From an uncultured Rhodospirillales bacterium (lineage in GTDB: Bacteria; Pseudomonadota; Alphaproteobacteria; Acetobacterales; Acetobacteraceae): a stretch of DNA of 61,203 bases. This document shows, piece after piece, positions 14,018 to 28,889 of this stretch. A program made the position numbers and the translations under genes. Position 1 is the first letter of the stretch, and the number at the start of each line of letters is the position of its first letter. Below the pieces are notes generated by a model. The model saw only the letters and a list, made by a program, of their open reading frames with translations. It was not told the DNA's origin and ran no database searches. The stretch covers positions 1-61,203 of the forward strand of contig CAIYSR010000111.1 of the NCBI GenBank assembly GCA_903928895.1. The letters run 5' to 3'.

Positions 14018-15328
14018 TCAGAACAGCGACAACTGGGCCTCCGCCATGCCGGCGATGGCGGGCGCGGCGAACCGGGTGACGTCCAGCTTGTCGCGGTTGT
14101 CGAGGCCCCATTGCTTCGCCGCCCGTTCGAAGCGCCGCGCCAGCAGATCCGCGTAGACGCCGGTGCCGCTGAAGCGCTGGCCGAATTTCGCCTCGTTGAG
14201 GGCACCCGCCCGGGTTTCGCGGATGAGTTCGAGCACGTGTTTCGCACGGTCGGGGAAATGCTGGTTCAGCCAGTCCTCGAAGATCTGTTTCAGCTCATGC
14301 GGCAGGCGCAGCAGGATGTAGCCACCCCAGCGGGCGCCGGCGCGCGATGCCGCCTCGAGGATGCGTTCCATCTCGGCGTCGTTGAGGGCCGGGATCATCG
14401 GCGCCGCGAGGACGCCGACCGGGATGCCGGCGCGCGCGAGCTGCTCGATCGCTTGCAGCCGCCGGGTGGGGGCGGCCGCGCGGGGTTCCATCCGGCGGGC
14501 GAGATTGGCGTCGAGCGTGGTGACGGAGATGCAGACCCGAACCAGATTGCGTTCCGCCATCCCGTGCAGGACGTCCAGGTCGCGCAGCACGCCGGCGGAC
14601 TTGGTGACGATGGTGACCGGGTGGTTGAAACGGTCCAGCACCTCCAGCACGGCGCGGGTCAGTTTCAGGGTGCGGTCGATCGGTTGGTATGGATCGGTGT
14701 TGGAGCCCAGCGCCAGCGGCCGGGCGATGTAGCCGGGCTTGCGCAGCTCTTTCTCCAGCAGCTCCGCCACCTCGGGCTTGAACAGCAGCTTGGTTTCGAA
14801 ATCGAGGCCCGGCGAGTAGCCGAGATAGGCGTGGGTCGGGCGGGCGTAGCAGTAGACGCAGCCATGCTCGCAGCCGCGATAGGGGTTCACGGCGCGGTCG
14901 AAGCCGAGATCGGGGCTTTGGTTGTAGCTGATCACGCTCCGGCTTGCGTCACGTATCAGGGTGGTCGCGAGCGGCGGCAGATCGGCGAGGTCGGCGGTCA
15001 GCGTGTTCCAGCCATCGTCGAACGGCGCGGCGGCGTTGGTCTCGAAGCGGTTGGGCGGATTGACGGTCGCGCCGCGGCCCTTGCGGGCGCCGGCCTGTAC
15101 CGTGGTCTCGCTCACGACGGGAACGGGTGGGATGGTCAGCATCGCGCGCGGCCGCACCGGAACGGGCTTGCGCCCATGCGCCAGCGCCGCGCGTCCCATC
15201 ACCAGCGGCGCGTCGTCGTCGTAGCTCTCGGTCGGGTCGATTTCCCGCACGAGCTCGCGCCGCCCCTGGTAGGGTTCGGCCTGGTAGCCGAGTCCTGGCG
15301 TGCCGCTTTGAAAATCAGGGTCCCGCAT
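14018..15328 (-). CDS. PA0069-family radical SAM protein
   Basis: A 436-residue radical SAM enzyme. The cluster motif is CEHGCVYCYA (about 132-141, CX3CX2C) after the family block NPYRGCEHGC. Downstream are LALGSNTDPYQPIDR (about 178-192) and VTIVTKSAGVLRDLD (about 214-228), as in PA0069/spore-photoproduct-lyase-like proteins. The N-terminal 110 residues are poorly conserved and basic. The family function is not established. The ATG at 15328 follows a GGAG site. It converges on the LivF gene across the hairpin terminator and diverges from the glycosyltransferase at 15395. Confidence 0.9.
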   Translation of the reverse strand: MRDPDFQSGTPGLGYQAEPYQGRRELVREIDPTESYDDDAPLVMGRAALAHGRKPVPVRPRAMLTIPPVPVVSETTVQAGARKGRGATVNPPNRFETNAAAPFDDGWNTLTADLADLPPLATTLIRDASRSVISYNQSPDLGFDRAVNPYRGCEHGCVYCYARPTHAYLGYSPGLDFETKLLFKPEVAELLEKELRKPGYIARPLALGSNTDPYQPIDRTLKLTRAVLEVLDRFNHPVTIVTKSAGVLRDLDVLHGMAERNLVRVCISVTTLDANLARRMEPRAAAPTRRLQAIEQLARAGIPVGVLAAPMIPALNDAEMERILEAASRAGARWGGYILLRLPHELKQIFEDWLNQHFPDRAKHVLELIRETRAGALNEAKFGQRFSGTGVYADLLARRFERAAKQWGLDNRDKLDVTRFAAPAIAGMAEAQLSLF

Positions 15329-15394: not shown

Positions 15395-16057
15395 ATGAAC
15401 CTGAGCGACATTTCGGTGATCATCCCGACGCTGAATGCCGCCGCGGGGTTGCCTGGCGCGCTGGCGGCCGTGGCGGGGGTGGGGGAGGTGATCGTGGTCG
15501 ATGGTGGCAGCCGGGACGGGACGGTGGCGGCGGCGGGGAGCGCGCGGGTGGTGCAGGGCGCGCGCGGCCGGGGCACGCAGTTCGCGGCGGGGATCGCGGC
15601 GGCGCGCCATCCCTGGCTGTTGTTGCTGCATGCCGATACGCGGCTTGCTCCGGAATGGCGCGGCGCAGCGCTGCGGCTGATGCAGGCGGGGGAGGCGAAG
15701 GCGGGCTATTTCCGCCTTTCTTTTGACAGCGCCGATCCGAGGGCGCGCCGACTGGAGCGGGTGGTGGCCTGGCGCAGCCGGGTGTTCGGGCTGCCCTACG
15801 GCGACCAGGGGCTGTTGATCCATCGGGCGCTGCTCGACCGCGCCGGAGGGATGCGGCCATTGCCGTTGATGGAGGATGTCGACCTGGCGCGCCGGCTTGG
15901 CCGCGGCCGTCTGGTCGCGCTCGACGCGACCGCTCTCACGTCGCCGGTCCGTTACGAGCGGGATGGCTGGCGCCGACGTTCGCTGCGCAACCTGGGTTGT
16001 CTTGCGCTGTGGTTCCTGGGCGTGCCGCCACGACTGATCGCAAAGCTGTACGCATGA
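15395..16057 (+). CDS. Glycosyltransferase family 2 (TIGR04283 type)
   Basis: A 220-residue GT-A protein starting MNLSDISVIIPTLNAA. VVDGGSRDGT (about 35-44) binds the nucleotide, and LLLHADTRL (about 74-82) carries the metal-binding DxD-like motif. The length and the PYGDQGLLIHR block (about 134-144) match the family called arsenosugar-type glycosyltransferase TIGR04283. No arsenic methylation or radical SAM ArsS gene is nearby, so the name should not be read as a function. It is coupled by ATGA overlap to the TIGR04282 partner. Confidence 0.9.
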   Translation: MNLSDISVIIPTLNAAAGLPGALAAVAGVGEVIVVDGGSRDGTVAAAGSARVVQGARGRGTQFAAGIAAARHPWLLLLHADTRLAPEWRGAALRLMQAGEAKAGYFRLSFDSADPRARRLERVVAWRSRVFGLPYGDQGLLIHRALLDRAGGMRPLPLMEDVDLARRLGRGRLVALDATALTSPVRYERDGWRRRSLRNLGCLALWFLGVPPRLIAKLYA

Positions 16058-16623
16058 AGGGTCTGGCCATCATCTTTGCCCGGGCGCCGCGCCTCGGCAC
16101 GGTCAAGCGGCGGCTGGCCCGGGATATCGGCGAGCGCGCGGCGCTGCGGTTCCATCAGGCGATGCTGGGCAGCCTGATCCGCCGCCTGGCGCGGGACCGG
16201 CGGTTCGAGACCGTGGTGGCGCTGACGCCGGATGGCGCGCGGGTGCGGGTGCCGGCGCGGATTCGGGTGGTCGCGCAGGGGCGGGGCGATCTGGGGGTTC
16301 GGATGTCGCGCGCCCTGGCGCGGGGTCGCCGCGCGGTGCTGGTGGGCTGCGATATTCCCGGAATCGGGGCGGCCGACATCGCCGCCGGGTTGCGGGCGCT
16401 GGGGCGGGTGGATGCGGTGTTCGGACCGGCTGCGGATGGCGGCTACTGGCTGGTCGGGCAGGGCCTGCGGCGCCCGGGGCGGCCGTTCGCCGGGGTGCGC
16501 TGGTCGACCGAGCATGCGCTTGCCGACACGCTGACGAATTTCGCGCGCCATCGGGTGGCATTGTTGCGACGGATGCGGGATGTCGATACCGTTGCGGACC
16601 TCGAAGCGATGGGACTCCGCTGA
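16054..16623 (+). CDS. DUF2064/TIGR04282-type glycosyltransferase
   Basis: A 189-residue CofC/MobA-like nucleotidyl-transferase-fold protein: FARAPRLGTVKRRLA (about 8-22), ALVGCDIPGIGAADI-like acidic motif (about 94-109) and GPAADGGYWLVG (about 126-137). The family accompanies TIGR04283 proteins and presumably hands a sugar or phosphosugar between them. It overlaps the upstream gene by ATGA and the downstream lipoprotein by TGATG, so all three are probably one transcript. Confidence 0.88.
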   Translation: MKGLAIIFARAPRLGTVKRRLARDIGERAALRFHQAMLGSLIRRLARDRRFETVVALTPDGARVRVPARIRVVAQGRGDLGVRMSRALARGRRAVLVGCDIPGIGAADIAAGLRALGRVDAVFGPAADGGYWLVGQGLRRPGRPFAGVRWSTEHALADTLTNFARHRVALLRRMRDVDTVADLEAMGLR

Positions 16624-17426
16624 TGCGCTCAGGGCTGTTGCTGACATTGCTGCTCCTGGTTTCGGGTTGTGCGGGGACATCCCTCGAGATCCCACCCCAT
16701 GCGATCGCTGGTACGCGCGCGGCGAAAATCGCCCTGCCGGGCAAGCTGTTCCTGCCCTCCGGGACCGGCCCCCATCCGGTGGTGATCCTGTTGCATGGCT
16801 GCGACGGGCTCAGCCCCAGCACGGTGGCGGGCAGCGGCATGGAACGCTGGGTATCGCGGGTGAACGGCTGGGGCTATGCCGCCCTGGTGCTCGACAGCAT
16901 GTCGCCGCGCGGGGTCAGCGGGGTCTGCCCCAGCGCCGACCAGCCCAAGGTGACGGTGGTGGACCGCAGCGGCGATGTGGTGAGTGCCGCACTTTATCTG
17001 AGGGGGATCAAGGAGATCGACGGCAACCGCATCGCGGCCATGGGGTTCTCCCATGGTGGCGCGACCGCGGCACGCACCGCGGTGGCGCCGGCCGGCGCGC
17101 AGGCGCGGCCGTTGCTGAAGGCGGCAATCGACTATTACGGCTCCTGCGCCGGGGCCGCGAGCTACACCGGCTTGCCGCTGCTGGTGCTGGCCGGTGGGGA
17201 CGATGACTGGGGCAATCCGGCCGCCACCTGTACCAATTTCGGCCGCGCCGTGGGCAAGGACCAGCCGTTCCAGGTGGTGGTCTATCCCGGCGTGGTGCAC
17301 GCCTTCGACAGCGCATGGCTGATCCGGCGGATCGTGAGCAACGGGCACGCGCTGCAATATGACCAGGCCGCGGCGGAGGACAGCTTCGTGCGGGCGCGGG
17401 CATTTCTGGATCGCTATGTCAAATAA
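16623..17426 (+). CDS. Dienelactone hydrolase-like lipoprotein (alpha/beta hydrolase)
   Basis: A 267-residue secreted lipoprotein with lipobox LVSGC (Cys16). The alpha/beta-hydrolase core has an oxyanion HGCDGL segment (His58-Gly59), nucleophile elbow GFSHGG with Ser143 (dienelactone hydrolases proper use Cys), a GGDDDW acid region and the final HAFD histidine. It is therefore a serine hydrolase of DLH-like fold at the periplasmic face of a membrane; the substrate is unknown. It shares a base with the glycosyltransferase stop (TGATG), suggesting envelope glycan or glycolipid work (inference). Confidence 0.85.
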   Translation: MRSGLLLTLLLLVSGCAGTSLEIPPHAIAGTRAAKIALPGKLFLPSGTGPHPVVILLHGCDGLSPSTVAGSGMERWVSRVNGWGYAALVLDSMSPRGVSGVCPSADQPKVTVVDRSGDVVSAALYLRGIKEIDGNRIAAMGFSHGGATAARTAVAPAGAQARPLLKAAIDYYGSCAGAASYTGLPLLVLAGGDDDWGNPAATCTNFGRAVGKDQPFQVVVYPGVVHAFDSAWLIRRIVSNGHALQYDQAAAEDSFVRARAFLDRYVK

Positions 17427-17717
17427 TGATGATGTCACATAATGCGGATGCGCGCTGACGGGCGGCCCGTTCAGCGCTTGAGCATGTGTTTGCATGCCGG
17501 TCGGAGCTGATGGCGGGCGTCGAGCCGCAATCGGCATTCGCTGCACCACGGTTCAGTCGATCTGAATTGCGTCCGTGGAGCGTTGGTACCTCCCAAACAG
17601 CCGCAACGCTGCCATCGGACCTTTTGTTGACGCTGGCCACCTGCTTCGCATTTTGCGAATCCTCGTTGGCACGCCGCTTGCTGCTCCCAGTTTGTCGATC
17701 AACCAAAGGAGGTTCCT
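17427..17717. other. Intergenic region upstream of the exosortase locus
   Basis: A 291-bp stretch without a convincing gene. It is less GC-rich than its surroundings. It holds a possible promoter, TTGACG at 17627-17632 with a weak -10-like CATTTT sixteen bases later, and ends in a strong ribosome binding site (AGGAGG at 17706-17711). Confidence 0.4.
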
Positions 17718-17951
17718 ATGTTCCGCAAACTCGCTCTACTCGCTGCCGTCATCATGCTCGCCTCGGCCCCGGTGGCGTTCGCCGATGACAACCAGGGCAA
17801 TCGCGAAGGCGAAGGCGGCGACGGCCGCGTCGTCTACACGTCCAGCGACCGTGAATTGCCCGCGCACGGGTTCGGCTGGGCGACGCTCGGCATCGTGATG
17901 CTGGGCGGCGCTGGGGTGGTGATGCTGCGCCGGGCGCAGGCCGGTCGCTGA
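17718..17951 (+). CDS. Small secreted protein with sortase-like C-terminal sorting signal; likely exosortase target
   Basis: A 77-residue protein. Residues 1-22 form a clear signal peptide (cleavage after PVAFA), 23-46 are a short Gly/Asp/Glu-rich extracytoplasmic stretch, and 47-77 form a tripartite tail: LPAHGFG motif (47-53), hydrophobic helix WATLGIVMLGGAGVVML (54-70) and the basic end RRAQAGR. This is the architecture of exosortase and sortase substrates. A strong AGGAGG site precedes the ATG. The exosortase-like gene begins 34 bp downstream on the same strand, so a dedicated enzyme/substrate pair is likely. I do not recognise LPAHG as a named sorting motif. Confidence 0.7.
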   Translation: MFRKLALLAAVIMLASAPVAFADDNQGNREGEGGDGRVVYTSSDRELPAHGFGWATLGIVMLGGAGVVMLRRAQAGR

Positions 17952-17985
17952 CCGGTTCAGCCGCCCGCCAGAAAGGGAGCGTGCG

Positions 17986-18822
17986 ATGGCTATCGTGGGT
18001 CGCAAGGCGAGCAACGCAATTTGCGGCCCGTTCATCGCATTCTGCAAGGAGTTGGCGGGCGGCGCCGCGATTTCGTCGACTTGGCTGCTGATCTGGGCCG
18101 GACTGGCGGCACAAGCCCATTGGGTGCTCGCGGTCGGCGCTGCCGACATCGAGTTTCCGCACCCCATGGTGGTGCTCGCTGTGCTCGCGATCGTCACTGG
18201 CATTCCGCGCATGCCGCTGGTGCCACCGACCCGGGCGGACTGGGCGCTGTTCGCTCTGGCGCTGTTCGCCTGCATGCTGCCGTTCCGCACGGCCGCCTCG
18301 CTAGCGCTCGGGTGTGCGGCCGCGATCGCCTGGCGGGGCCACGGACCCGCGGCGCGTTCGGTCTCAGTGCTGCTGCTGGCGCTGGCCGGCTGGGGCATGA
18401 AGGACGGGGTCTGGGTCGGCTTCGTCAGCGTCCCGGTGATGGCAGCCGAGGCCCATGTGGTCAGCTTCCTGCTGAACCTCGGCGGCCTGCCGTCCGAGGC
18501 CACGGGAAACCACATCGAATTTCCGGATGGGCAAGGATTCATCATCCTGCGCGCGTGCTCGCTGCTGTCGCTTGCCTATCCCTGCGCGGTGGCCGTCTAT
18601 GCCTTGTTCTGCCTGGTCCATCCGAACCGTCAGCCGGGGCTGCTGCGTATAGCGCTGGCCCTTGCCATTCTCGCCGTGCTGAACAACGTCCGCCTCGTCT
18701 CGATGGCGGCTTCGCCCGCGATCTACGACTACCTGCATGGCGAGACCGGCGATCTGCCGCTGCAACTTGCCTGGTCCGGCATCGTGATGATTGCGGCCCT
18801 GCCGCAGCGGCGCGCCGCATGA
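17986..18822 (+). CDS. Exosortase/archaeosortase family protein
   Basis: A 278-residue polytopic membrane protein, about seven or eight helices. The three catalytic-type residues of exosortases are all present in the expected order and membrane context: Cys191 (LRACSLLS), Arg236 (LNNVRLV) and His251 (DYLHGE). The family cleaves C-terminal sorting signals of secreted proteins and passes them to an acceptor in the envelope. Overall similarity to the standard PEP-CTERM exosortase seems low, the EpsI-type domain is not fused, and no exopolysaccharide genes flank it. It is preceded by GGGAG and followed by an ATGA overlap with the next gene. The family is fairly sure; the subfamily is unknown. Confidence 0.75.
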   Translation: MAIVGRKASNAICGPFIAFCKELAGGAAISSTWLLIWAGLAAQAHWVLAVGAADIEFPHPMVVLAVLAIVTGIPRMPLVPPTRADWALFALALFACMLPFRTAASLALGCAAAIAWRGHGPAARSVSVLLLALAGWGMKDGVWVGFVSVPVMAAEAHVVSFLLNLGGLPSEATGNHIEFPDGQGFIILRACSLLSLAYPCAVAVYALFCLVHPNRQPGLLRIALALAILAVLNNVRLVSMAASPAIYDYLHGETGDLPLQLAWSGIVMIAALPQRRAA

Positions 18823-19283
18823 AGCGCCGCCTCAGCGCCCTGGCGGCAGTGCTCGCAGTGGCGGTGGGGGTCTGGCTGCGCCCGGCGGCCTCACCGACCG
18901 CGACGCTCAACGCCCGCGATGCGGCCGCGGCGTGGGCCACGGCGAATGGGCTGACATTGCAACGCAGTGAAAAACTCACGGCCTTGGGGATCTACATGAT
19001 CCACCACTTCAGCGCGGGCGTCGGGTGCACCCTGAGGGTGGTGCCGCTCGGCAATCCGGACGAGATCCTGCCCGAGTTGAACGAAAATGTGACGGAGGCG
19101 CAGTGGCAGACCAGTCGTCTGCTGCTCGTGACCGCGACGAAGATGCCGCGCACGGCCCTCGGGGTGCACGCCCAGCGCTTGCTGGCGCGCCTCGTCGACG
19201 GCCGTGCGCCGCAGCCGGTGATGCTCATCGCCCCGCCGCCCTGCGTGAACGTGGCGCATCTGCAGGCCTGGCCGGCGCAATAA
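18819..19283 (+). CDS. Membrane-anchored protein of unknown function, exosortase-associated
   Basis: A 154-residue protein with a basic start (MKRR), one N-terminal hydrophobic segment (about 5-20, signal anchor or signal peptide) and a predicted periplasmic remainder. Two cysteines, near residues 69 (GVGCTLRV) and 146 (PPPCVNV), could form a disulfide. The ATG lies in the stop of the exosortase gene (ATGA), so the two are made together. The position resembles that of EpsI-like partners that follow exosortases in other loci, but I see no clear EpsI signature and do not assign a function. Confidence 0.6.
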   Translation: MKRRLSALAAVLAVAVGVWLRPAASPTATLNARDAAAAWATANGLTLQRSEKLTALGIYMIHHFSAGVGCTLRVVPLGNPDEILPELNENVTEAQWQTSRLLLVTATKMPRTALGVHAQRLLARLVDGRAPQPVMLIAPPPCVNVAHLQAWPAQ

Positions 19284-19292
19284 AGCGACTGG

Positions 19293-19314
19293 GCCGCCGG
19301 TCCAACGCGGCGGC
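19293..19314. terminator. GC hairpin between convergent genes
   Basis: GCCGCCG pairs with CGGCGGC across an eight-base loop in the 40-bp gap between the exosortase-associated gene and moaB. There is only a weak T-run, so termination efficiency is uncertain. Confidence 0.45.
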
Positions 19315-19323
19315 TGGGTTAAA

Positions 19324-19869
19324 CTATCCGGCGGCTTTCAGATGCTCCTGCAGCCGGGGCATGAGTTCGACCAGGTTGCAGGGGCGGTGGCGGTTGTCGA
19401 GCTGCCAGACCAGGATGTCGTCCCAGGCGTCCTTCACCGCGCCGGTGCTGCCGGGAAGGGCGAACAGATAGGTGCCGCCAGCGACGCCGCCGATGGCACG
19501 GGACTGCATCGTCGAGGTGCCGATCTTGGCGTAGCTCAGCATGCGAAACAGCTCGCCAAAGCCTTCGATGGTTTTTTCGAGGACTTGATCAAAGGCTTCC
19601 GGCGTGACGTCGCGGCCGGTGATGCCGGTGCCGCCGGTGGTGATGACGACATCGATGCCCGGCGCGGCGATCCAGGCGCGCAGGCGGGCGGCGATCAGAA
19701 CCGACTCGTCCTTCTCGATGGCCCGCTCGGCAACGACGTGCCCGGCCGCCACGATGCGGGCGGCGAGCGTGGCACCCGAGGTGTCGGTGTCCAGGGTGCG
19801 GGTGTCGGAGACGGTCAGCACCGCGATGTTGACGGGCAGAAAAGGGCGAGTTTCGTCGATGCGGGTCAT
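19324..19869 (-). CDS. moaB: Molybdenum cofactor biosynthesis protein B
   Basis: A 181-residue MoaB/MogA-family protein acting in molybdopterin adenylylation. Visible motifs: VLTVSDTRTLDTDTSG (about 17-32), ITTGGTGITGRDVTPEA (about 77-93) and LFALPGSTGAVKDAWDD (about 139-155). It is of the usual length. The ATG at 19869 has a GGAGG site. Its presence fits the two molybdenum hydroxylase systems encoded in the window, though it stands alone. Confidence 0.95.
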   Translation of the reverse strand: MTRIDETRPFLPVNIAVLTVSDTRTLDTDTSGATLAARIVAAGHVVAERAIEKDESVLIAARLRAWIAAPGIDVVITTGGTGITGRDVTPEAFDQVLEKTIEGFGELFRMLSYAKIGTSTMQSRAIGGVAGGTYLFALPGSTGAVKDAWDDILVWQLDNRHRPCNLVELMPRLQEHLKAAG

Positions 19870-19992
19870 GAAAGCCTCCGTCGGTCGCGGGGCCGCACTC
19901 TTGCAAGGATGGAAGCGGGCGACAAGCACGGGCAGGGCGGCATCGATAGAGGTGTTGCCGAGCACGCGAGCTTGGCGCCATGCACGGTCAGG

Positions 19993-28098: not shown

Positions 28099-28889
28099 TG
28101 CGCGCCGACGCACTTTGGCGCTTCCCGGGCGCACGGTCCGTCGCGCTGGCGGCGGTCGCCTTCCTCTATCTGCCCATCGTGGTTCTTGTCCTGCTGTCCT
28201 TCAGCGATGGCGACTCGCTGGCAGAATGGTCCGGCGTGAGCCTGCGCTGGTATCGCGAGGTGTTCGACAATGCGGACATGCAACGCGCGATCCGCAATTC
28301 GCTCGTGGTTGCCTGTACCGCGACGCTGCTGGCCACTGTGGCGGCGACCATGGCCGCGCTCGTCCTCGCCCGCGGCCAGTTCCGCGGCAAGCGAGCGATG
28401 GAGGCGCTCCTCGGCCTGCCGCTGGTCGTGCCCGAGATCGTCGGCGGCATTGCCATCCTGATGTTCTTCGTGCTCGTCGGCATCCGCCTCGGCATCGTCT
28501 CGATCGTTCTCGCCCACACCGTCTTCGTCACCCCCTTCGCCTATCTGCCGATCCGCGCCCGCCTCGACGGCCTCAACCCGGCGTTCGCCGAGGCCGCCGC
28601 CGACCTCTACGCCGGCCCGGTGCGGGCCTTCCTTCGCGTGACCCTGCCGCTGATCTGGCCGGGCATTGCCGCCGGCGCCATGCTCGCCTTCATCGGCTCG
28701 CTGGGTGACGTCGTGGTGAGCTACTTCGTCTCCGGACCCGGCGCCACGACCCTGCCGGTCTACATCTTCAGCATGGTCCGAATGGGAGTGACGCCGATGG
28801 TCAACGCCGTCTCGTCGCTGCTGCTGTTCATCTCGCTCGCGCTGCTGACGGTTTCGTACCTGCTCGGCAGGCGCTATGCCTCGAACTAA
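28098..28889 (+). CDS. potC: Polyamine-type ABC transporter permease, PotC type
   Basis: A 263-residue permease: LPIVVLVLLSFSDGDS near the N-terminus, the central PLVVPEIVGGIAILMFF block (about 110-126) and the EAAADLYAGPVRAFLRVTLP coupling loop (about 164-183), all as in PotC/PotI. It pairs with the PotB-type subunit to form the channel and ends 18 bp before the binding protein. Confidence 0.93.
   Translation: MRADALWRFPGARSVALAAVAFLYLPIVVLVLLSFSDGDSLAEWSGVSLRWYREVFDNADMQRAIRNSLVVACTATLLATVAATMAALVLARGQFRGKRAMEALLGLPLVVPEIVGGIAILMFFVLVGIRLGIVSIVLAHTVFVTPFAYLPIRARLDGLNPAFAEAAADLYAGPVRAFLRVTLPLIWPGIAAGAMLAFIGSLGDVVVSYFVSGPGATTLPVYIFSMVRMGVTPMVNAVSSLLLFISLALLTVSYLLGRRYASN

Follow-up and report, generated by a model that had tools for sequence, protein, structure and literature searches.

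A probable dedicated exosortase module with one small predicted substrate and a two-cysteine partner protein in an uncultured Rhodospirillales bacterium

Three adjoining genes in the genome of an uncultured Rhodospirillales bacterium probably constitute a dedicated exosortase module, made up of an enzyme, a single substrate, and a partner protein. Sequence comparison supports the homology of the enzyme, the conservation of its characteristic residues, the gene order, the linkage of enzyme and partner, and, in three genomes, the presence of one sorting signal per genome. The export of the substrate, catalysis and cleavage, the cleavage site, the acceptor, the disulfide, and the roles of the partner and of the module in the organism are predictions. 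The stretch of DNA analyzed (the window, 61,203 nucleotides) is the entire contig C111 of a 5.57-Mb genome (G000) in 191 contigs. The three genes lie head-to-tail in the order substrate, exosortase, partner, and the features of the module are as follows:

17705..17712, forward strand, AAAGGAGG, probable ribosome-binding site for the substrate gene, identified by inspection of the sequence
17718..17951, forward strand, predicted substrate gene, 77-aa precursor, taken from the ORF list
Substrate residues ~1-22, predicted signal peptide, placed by the AXA rule only
Substrate residues ~23-46, short, acidic, Gly-rich middle
Substrate residues ~47-77, predicted C-terminal sorting signal, with the LPAHGFGWATL motif, a helix, and a basic tail
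17859..17948, forward strand, C-terminal 30 residues of the substrate, the segment represented in signal profile A6
17986..18822, forward strand, exosortase-like gene, 278 aa, membrane protein
18819..19283, forward strand, partner gene, 154 aa, one N-terminal hydrophobic helix followed by a two-cysteine domain

A sequence-only reading of this DNA had proposed a three-gene locus of exosortase, substrate, and partner, and its open reading frames, the ATGA overlap of the exosortase TGA with the partner ATG (18819-18822), and residues C191, R236, and H251 were all found as described. The exosortase gene is preceded by a ribosome-binding-site-like sequence, AAGGGAG. The module is flanked by an alpha/beta hydrolase gene that ends at 17426 and by a convergent MoCF-type gene at 19324-19965. 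A scan of positions 17300-19500 detected one promoter-like site (17416-17443, 9/12; 0.2 expected) and no terminator. The GC content of the module, 0.686, is close to that of the window, 0.682, and so gives no sign of recent transfer. Third codon positions diverge more than first and second positions in all seven comparisons of the three module genes. About 1 kb upstream of the module there are two adjoining genes, 15395-16054 and 16054-16620, whose products score over the cut-offs of TIGR04283 and TIGR04282, models named as arsenosugar biosynthesis glycosyltransferases; beside this pair, on the opposite strand, lies a PA0069-family radical SAM gene (14021-15142).

The exosortase homology asserted by the sequence-only reading passed the HMM check, the protein matching PF09721 with 28.3 bits against the Pfam gathering cut-off of 25.7. 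The same model is matched by just 2 of 15 relatives, even at E 0.1. With the NCBIfam signature TIGR04178, the window protein scores 14.5 bits, below the cut-off of 23, and its relative L078 scores 24.6 bits, above it. The best named NCBIfam model is cyanoexosortase A (CrtA; E 6.4e-6, 25.8 bits against a cut-off of 150), and the best named matches of the 15 relatives range from E 3.7e-6 (XrtS) to 0.056 (XrtN). Because the named exosortase models all fall under their cut-offs, no named family claims the window enzyme. Profile-profile alignment with XrtA, represented by three canonical exosortases with the genome's own XrtA first, gave an E of 7.8e-6 and a probability of 84, and placed C191, N233, R236, and H251 on the Cys, Asn, Arg, and His of XrtA. 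Together with G182 and G255, these residues are invariant in 26 of 26 aligned proteins, XrtA included.

A passage of PMC1569441 gives the invariant motifs of EpsH as Cys-x-Gly, Asn-x-x-Arg, and His-x3-Gly. The window enzyme has N233-x-x-R236 and H251-x-x-x-G255, and it has the Cys of the third motif, C191; the Gly of Cys-x-Gly is absent (C191-S-L), and for this reason we file the enzyme in the superfamily and not as a canonical EpsH (TIGR02602). Hydropathy analysis at the cut-off used gave six peaks; the structure model has 11 helices, 10 of them of at least 11 residues, with low confidence in the N-terminal half, and the EpsH criterion is at least eight membrane helices. The mean pLDDT of the model is 66, with 70-92 in blocks 151 to 210 and 221 to 260 and 66 in 211-220. 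A structure search with this fair model returned no solved relative by fold (best E 0.91).

Judged by hydropathy and ad hoc criteria, the 77-aa protein has the tripartite layout of an exosortase substrate, with a signal peptide and a C-terminal motif, helix, and basic tail. Of the 362 ORFs in the window that are 55 aa or longer, the same ad hoc criteria pick out only two, the substrate and an ORF at 28620 that, by eye, lies inside a permease-like frame. Conservation of the small protein is found mainly in its C-terminal region. An LPAHG-like, non-PEP motif had been suggested from the sequence; the non-PEP character stood, and the wording of the motif gave way to PA-x-x-FGWATL (PAHGFGWATL or PAPDFGWATL), which is the conserved form. 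In the NCBIfam scan there was no match of the substrate to TIGR02595 (PEP-CTERM), and both of the best-scoring models of sorting type, GVDTG_CTERM (15.4 against 29) and LPXTG_anchor (10.4 against 15.9), stayed below cut-off.

The signal profile A6, 30 residues long and built from the tails of G000, G148, and G382 themselves, has one strong match in each of these genomes (E 1.3e-17, 2.7e-17, and 9.6e-19, respectively). The next-best match among the seven genomes searched, four of which belong to the same genus and lack the window type, has an E of 0.0158. A search of the organism for further C-termini of this kind, as the sequence-only reading had recommended, therefore came out as it had anticipated, with one strong signal match per genome in three of three window-type genomes. 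One target per genome, the hallmark of a dedicated system, is what these three genomes have with respect to targets with an A6-type tail, the only targets that the profile would reveal, and the window-type signal was found in these three genomes only.

The predicted mature middle of the substrate, counted by hand with the best-judged AXA site where there are several, comprises ~24 residues in the window protein, 9 in G382, 22 in G370, 28 in G076, 39 in G403, and ~230 in G148; the G531 substrate has no AXA site. The predicted mature part is thus 9-39 residues long in five of the seven members of the clade described below, and the precursor is 62-90 aa in six of seven. The G148 substrate is a 288-aa Ser/Gly protein with the same tail layout as in the window and the same gene place. 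The G531 locus (L078) belongs to another family of the class, and its substrate has a tail close to that of the window, APGPDFGLGAALG, which indicates that the signal may predate the family.

When the family was searched with the single protein, 8 of 150 genomes gave matches, G000 being one of them. The others were clear relatives in G148 (57%) and G076 (40%), distant ones in G106 and G015, canonical-looking exosortases in G134 and G058, and in G047 a protein that does not look like an exosortase by eye. With a profile built from five sequences, 15 places were detected in 14 of the 395 genomes in the order. With one built from 15, matches appeared in 15 of 385 genomes of the class, of which three are weak and partial, and in 6 of 398 genomes of the phylum, where the sole match outside the class is weak (E 3.7e-4). 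A scan of named genomes yielded four loci, all in genomes that the other searches had turned up before. A member is present in two of five same-genus genomes, and no relatives were found on plasmids or viral contigs. In a tree of 26 rows that includes XrtA and leaves out G106, G459, G1024, and G1044, and in which 8 of 23 inner branches are open, a clade of seven (the window, G148, G382, G403, G076, G370, and G531) has support of 100/99, as does the subset of the window, G148, and G382 within it. Chance resemblance was considered as a source of the module and rejected on the signal search, the test of window ORFs, and this clade support.

The order substrate-exosortase-partner is kept in all seven clade members, with exosortase and partner fused in G403 and a gap of ~350 bases between substrate and exosortase in G531. 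The same order occurs outside the clade in G106, G015, G299, G373, and G004, where the product of the upstream gene is 256-269 aa long. NF050191, 'exosortase-dependent surface protein' (Npun_F0296), is matched by 4 of 10 scanned sister proteins (79.5-85.5 bits against 29), all four encoded directly before the exosortase; they come from four of those five sister modules (L014, L015, L024, L025, L026), G106 (L014) having been left out of the scan. The cut-off of LPXTG_anchor is narrowly passed by three sister substrates (L023, L024, and L084) because of the shared tripartite layout. A crude scan, which likewise failed to detect the candidate in G396, found no substrate within ~5-7 kb of the fused homologs G099:C4 and G382:C75, and at several class-level loci the upstream ORF is not substrate-like. 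In the distant relative L119 (G1024), exosortase and partner are accompanied by a Gly/Asn-rich substrate-like ORF that lies downstream instead of upstream.

The partner's cysteines C70 and C142 are invariant in 21 of 21 proteins. Neither Pfam nor NCBIfam gave a match to the window partner, and there was no relevant match among the 21 partners, EpsI and the known exosortase-associated proteins included. A co-occurrence search of enzyme and partner, also put forward by the sequence-only reading, bore out the linkage. The partner profile matched 26 places in 395 genomes of the order, 13 of them with E <=6e-15, in 12 genomes, and every one of these 13 strong places is adjacent to an exosortase place; the other 13 have E 1.9e-4 or worse and are weak and mostly partial. 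Since the profile already contained 10 of its 13 strong places, their recovery is partly circular; the absence of strong matches elsewhere is not. Conversely, 13 of 15 exosortase places in the order have a partner, those without being G396 and the marginal G197, and the partner is present at 10 of 12 class-level loci viewed (the weakest, L089-L091, left out), L086 and L087 being the two where none was seen. The sequence-only reading had named homologous loci that lack the small protein as evidence against its proposal; such loci occur outside the clade (G396, L086, and L087) and were not seen within it. Fusions of exosortase and partner, 404-465 aa long by the starts chosen, are encoded at L027 (G403), L028 (G099), and L032 (G382).

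The structure model of the partner, made with five sequences, is fair to good (mean pLDDT 81.9, pTM 0.71), and its fold has no significant match in the PDB (best E 0.19). Among the fold hits were several SycE/CesT-type chaperones of type III secretion whose helices and strands, by eye, follow a similar order, a likeness too weak to retain. Alignment with hhalign detected no relation of the partner to the C-terminal domain of XrtA (probability 1.8, with three sequences on one side).

The module is not the only exosortase system of its host. A canonical XrtA of 505 aa, with its C-terminal domain, is encoded on contig C94 (L013; TIGR03109, 275 bits against 208) among genes that are, by eye, of the polysaccharide type, and 61 of the 66 PEP-CTERM matches listed for the genome are over the cut-off of a short model; two of 14 control genomes also have matches over it. 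In the window module the genome therefore has its second exosortase system, and the picture of an organism without any other found no support; the absence of PEP-CTERM proteins and of an exopolysaccharide cluster holds around the gene and fails for the genome as a whole. A canonical exosortase scored over cut-off in 10 of 17 genomes searched. Eight of the 14 genomes with a relative of the window enzyme have one, among them G000, G148, and G382, and six have no match (G370, G106, G015, G299, G373, and G004). The ORF lists, viewed mostly by eye, revealed no polysaccharide cluster around the modules of the window, G148, and G382. The modules of G076 and G370 are surrounded by glycosyltransferase genes, SLBB polysaccharide export genes, and genes of flippase type, which does not support the notion that a polysaccharide context is foreign to modules of this kind. 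Such contexts would fit an origin in polysaccharide systems followed by independence.

We propose that the Sec pathway would export the 77-aa precursor, that signal peptidase would trim it, and that its C-terminal helix would hold the trimmed form in the inner membrane. The exosortase would then recognize PA-x-x-FGWATL at the periplasmic face and cut near the motif by means of C191, with R236 and H251 assisting. The short middle segment might be released, or passed on to an acceptor, which may be a surface glycan or lipid. With one helix as its anchor and a probable C70-C142 disulfide, the partner would work with the exosortase in the periplasm. A bolder version, in which the sole product of the exosortase is a very short peptide that is released or placed on a surface polymer to serve as a tag, linker, or signal, is a speculation that we regard as unlikely; we know of no exosortase with an oligopeptide as its mature target, or with so small a target.

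Three other interpretations were weighed against the dedicated module. The likeliest of them has a modest chance of being correct. In it, the module serves as an accessory to an XrtA-like polysaccharide system, processing one further surface component of that system's exopolysaccharide. This reading draws on the polysaccharide setting of the G076 and G370 modules and on the canonical exosortase in each of G000, G148, and G382, but it is opposed by the lack of a visible cluster around the modules of these last three genomes and by the six of 14 module genomes without a canonical match. Those six genomes also weigh against the improbable idea that the small protein, with two helices in the membrane, is no substrate but a subunit or regulator of the exosortase, and that the enzyme's true targets lie elsewhere, for example among the PEP-CTERM proteins of the genome. 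That idea would account for the tiny predicted mature part (9 residues in G382), for conservation concentrated at the C-terminal region, and for the coexistence of XrtA and 61 PEP-CTERM matches, but it sits poorly with the 256-269 aa surface-type proteins of the sister modules (NF050191 in the four scanned) and with the 288-aa Ser/Gly protein of G148, which have the same tail layout and occupy the same place.

That the exosortase-like protein is an inactive, degenerate paralog is very hard to credit. Its low profile scores and the missing Gly of Cys-x-Gly could be read in this way, but the Cys, Asn, Arg, His, and Gly residues are invariant in all 26 aligned proteins, the excess of divergence at third codon positions is seen in every one of the seven comparisons, and the gene order has been kept.

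The dedicated module resembles XrtA/PEP-CTERM systems (EpsH, TIGR02602, TIGR03109) in superfamily, in the positions of Cys, Arg, and His, and in the tripartite C-terminal signal, but differs in having one signal match versus 61, no PEP-CTERM match, no surrounding polysaccharide cluster, and a partner unlike the XrtA C-terminal domain. XrtE/VPEID-CTERM is a dedicated single-target system of alphaproteobacteria and shares with the window module the single target and the bacterial class. The XrtE model TIGR04162 matched neither the window protein nor anything else in its genome and is over cut-off in 2 of 190 genomes of the class.

Associated proteins encoded beside an exosortase have precedents. 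For XrtF, a section of PMC10936215 places the associated-protein gene directly beside the exosortase gene and reports that exosortase and associated-protein mutants of F. johnsoniae share the phenotypes listed there, and an extract of PMC12188702 describes an adjacent associated protein, TIGR04533, for CrtB. The window module is like both in its adjacent associated-protein gene, and its partner differs in matching no NCBIfam or Pfam model. The one-enzyme, one-substrate arrangement had been offered as possibly undescribed, a claim that does not survive: in a portion of PMC3237569, a sorting enzyme with a single target in a genome, exosortases included, is already termed a 'dedicated system'. 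The same portion states that in most one-target genomes with rhombosortase/GlyGly-CTERM, the genes for enzyme and target are adjacent or nearly so; the dedicated rhombosortase is a rhomboid serine protease unrelated to the window enzyme, and the adjacency of enzyme and target is common to both. A passage of PMC1569441 reports, as of 2006, an EpsH homolog in Rhodospirillum rubrum, in whose genome just one PEP-CTERM protein had then been detected; by that description, the enzyme corresponds to the canonical model and its target carries a PEP-CTERM signal, which sets it apart from the window module. In light of these cases, as given in those portions of PMC3237569 and PMC1569441, the idea of a single target is not new. 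What the protein-family libraries searched (Pfam and NCBIfam) do not contain is the clade, the two-cysteine partner family, the PA-x-x-FGWATL signal, and substrates with so short a predicted mature part.

Little is known about how exosortases act chemically or what becomes of their targets, in part because a typical system has many of them. With a single enzyme, a single partner, and a single target, of 62-90 aa in six of seven clade members, the module is minimal and could be transferred in its entirety to a laboratory host for study, and the partner family, with its two invariant cysteines, has a role that is directly testable.
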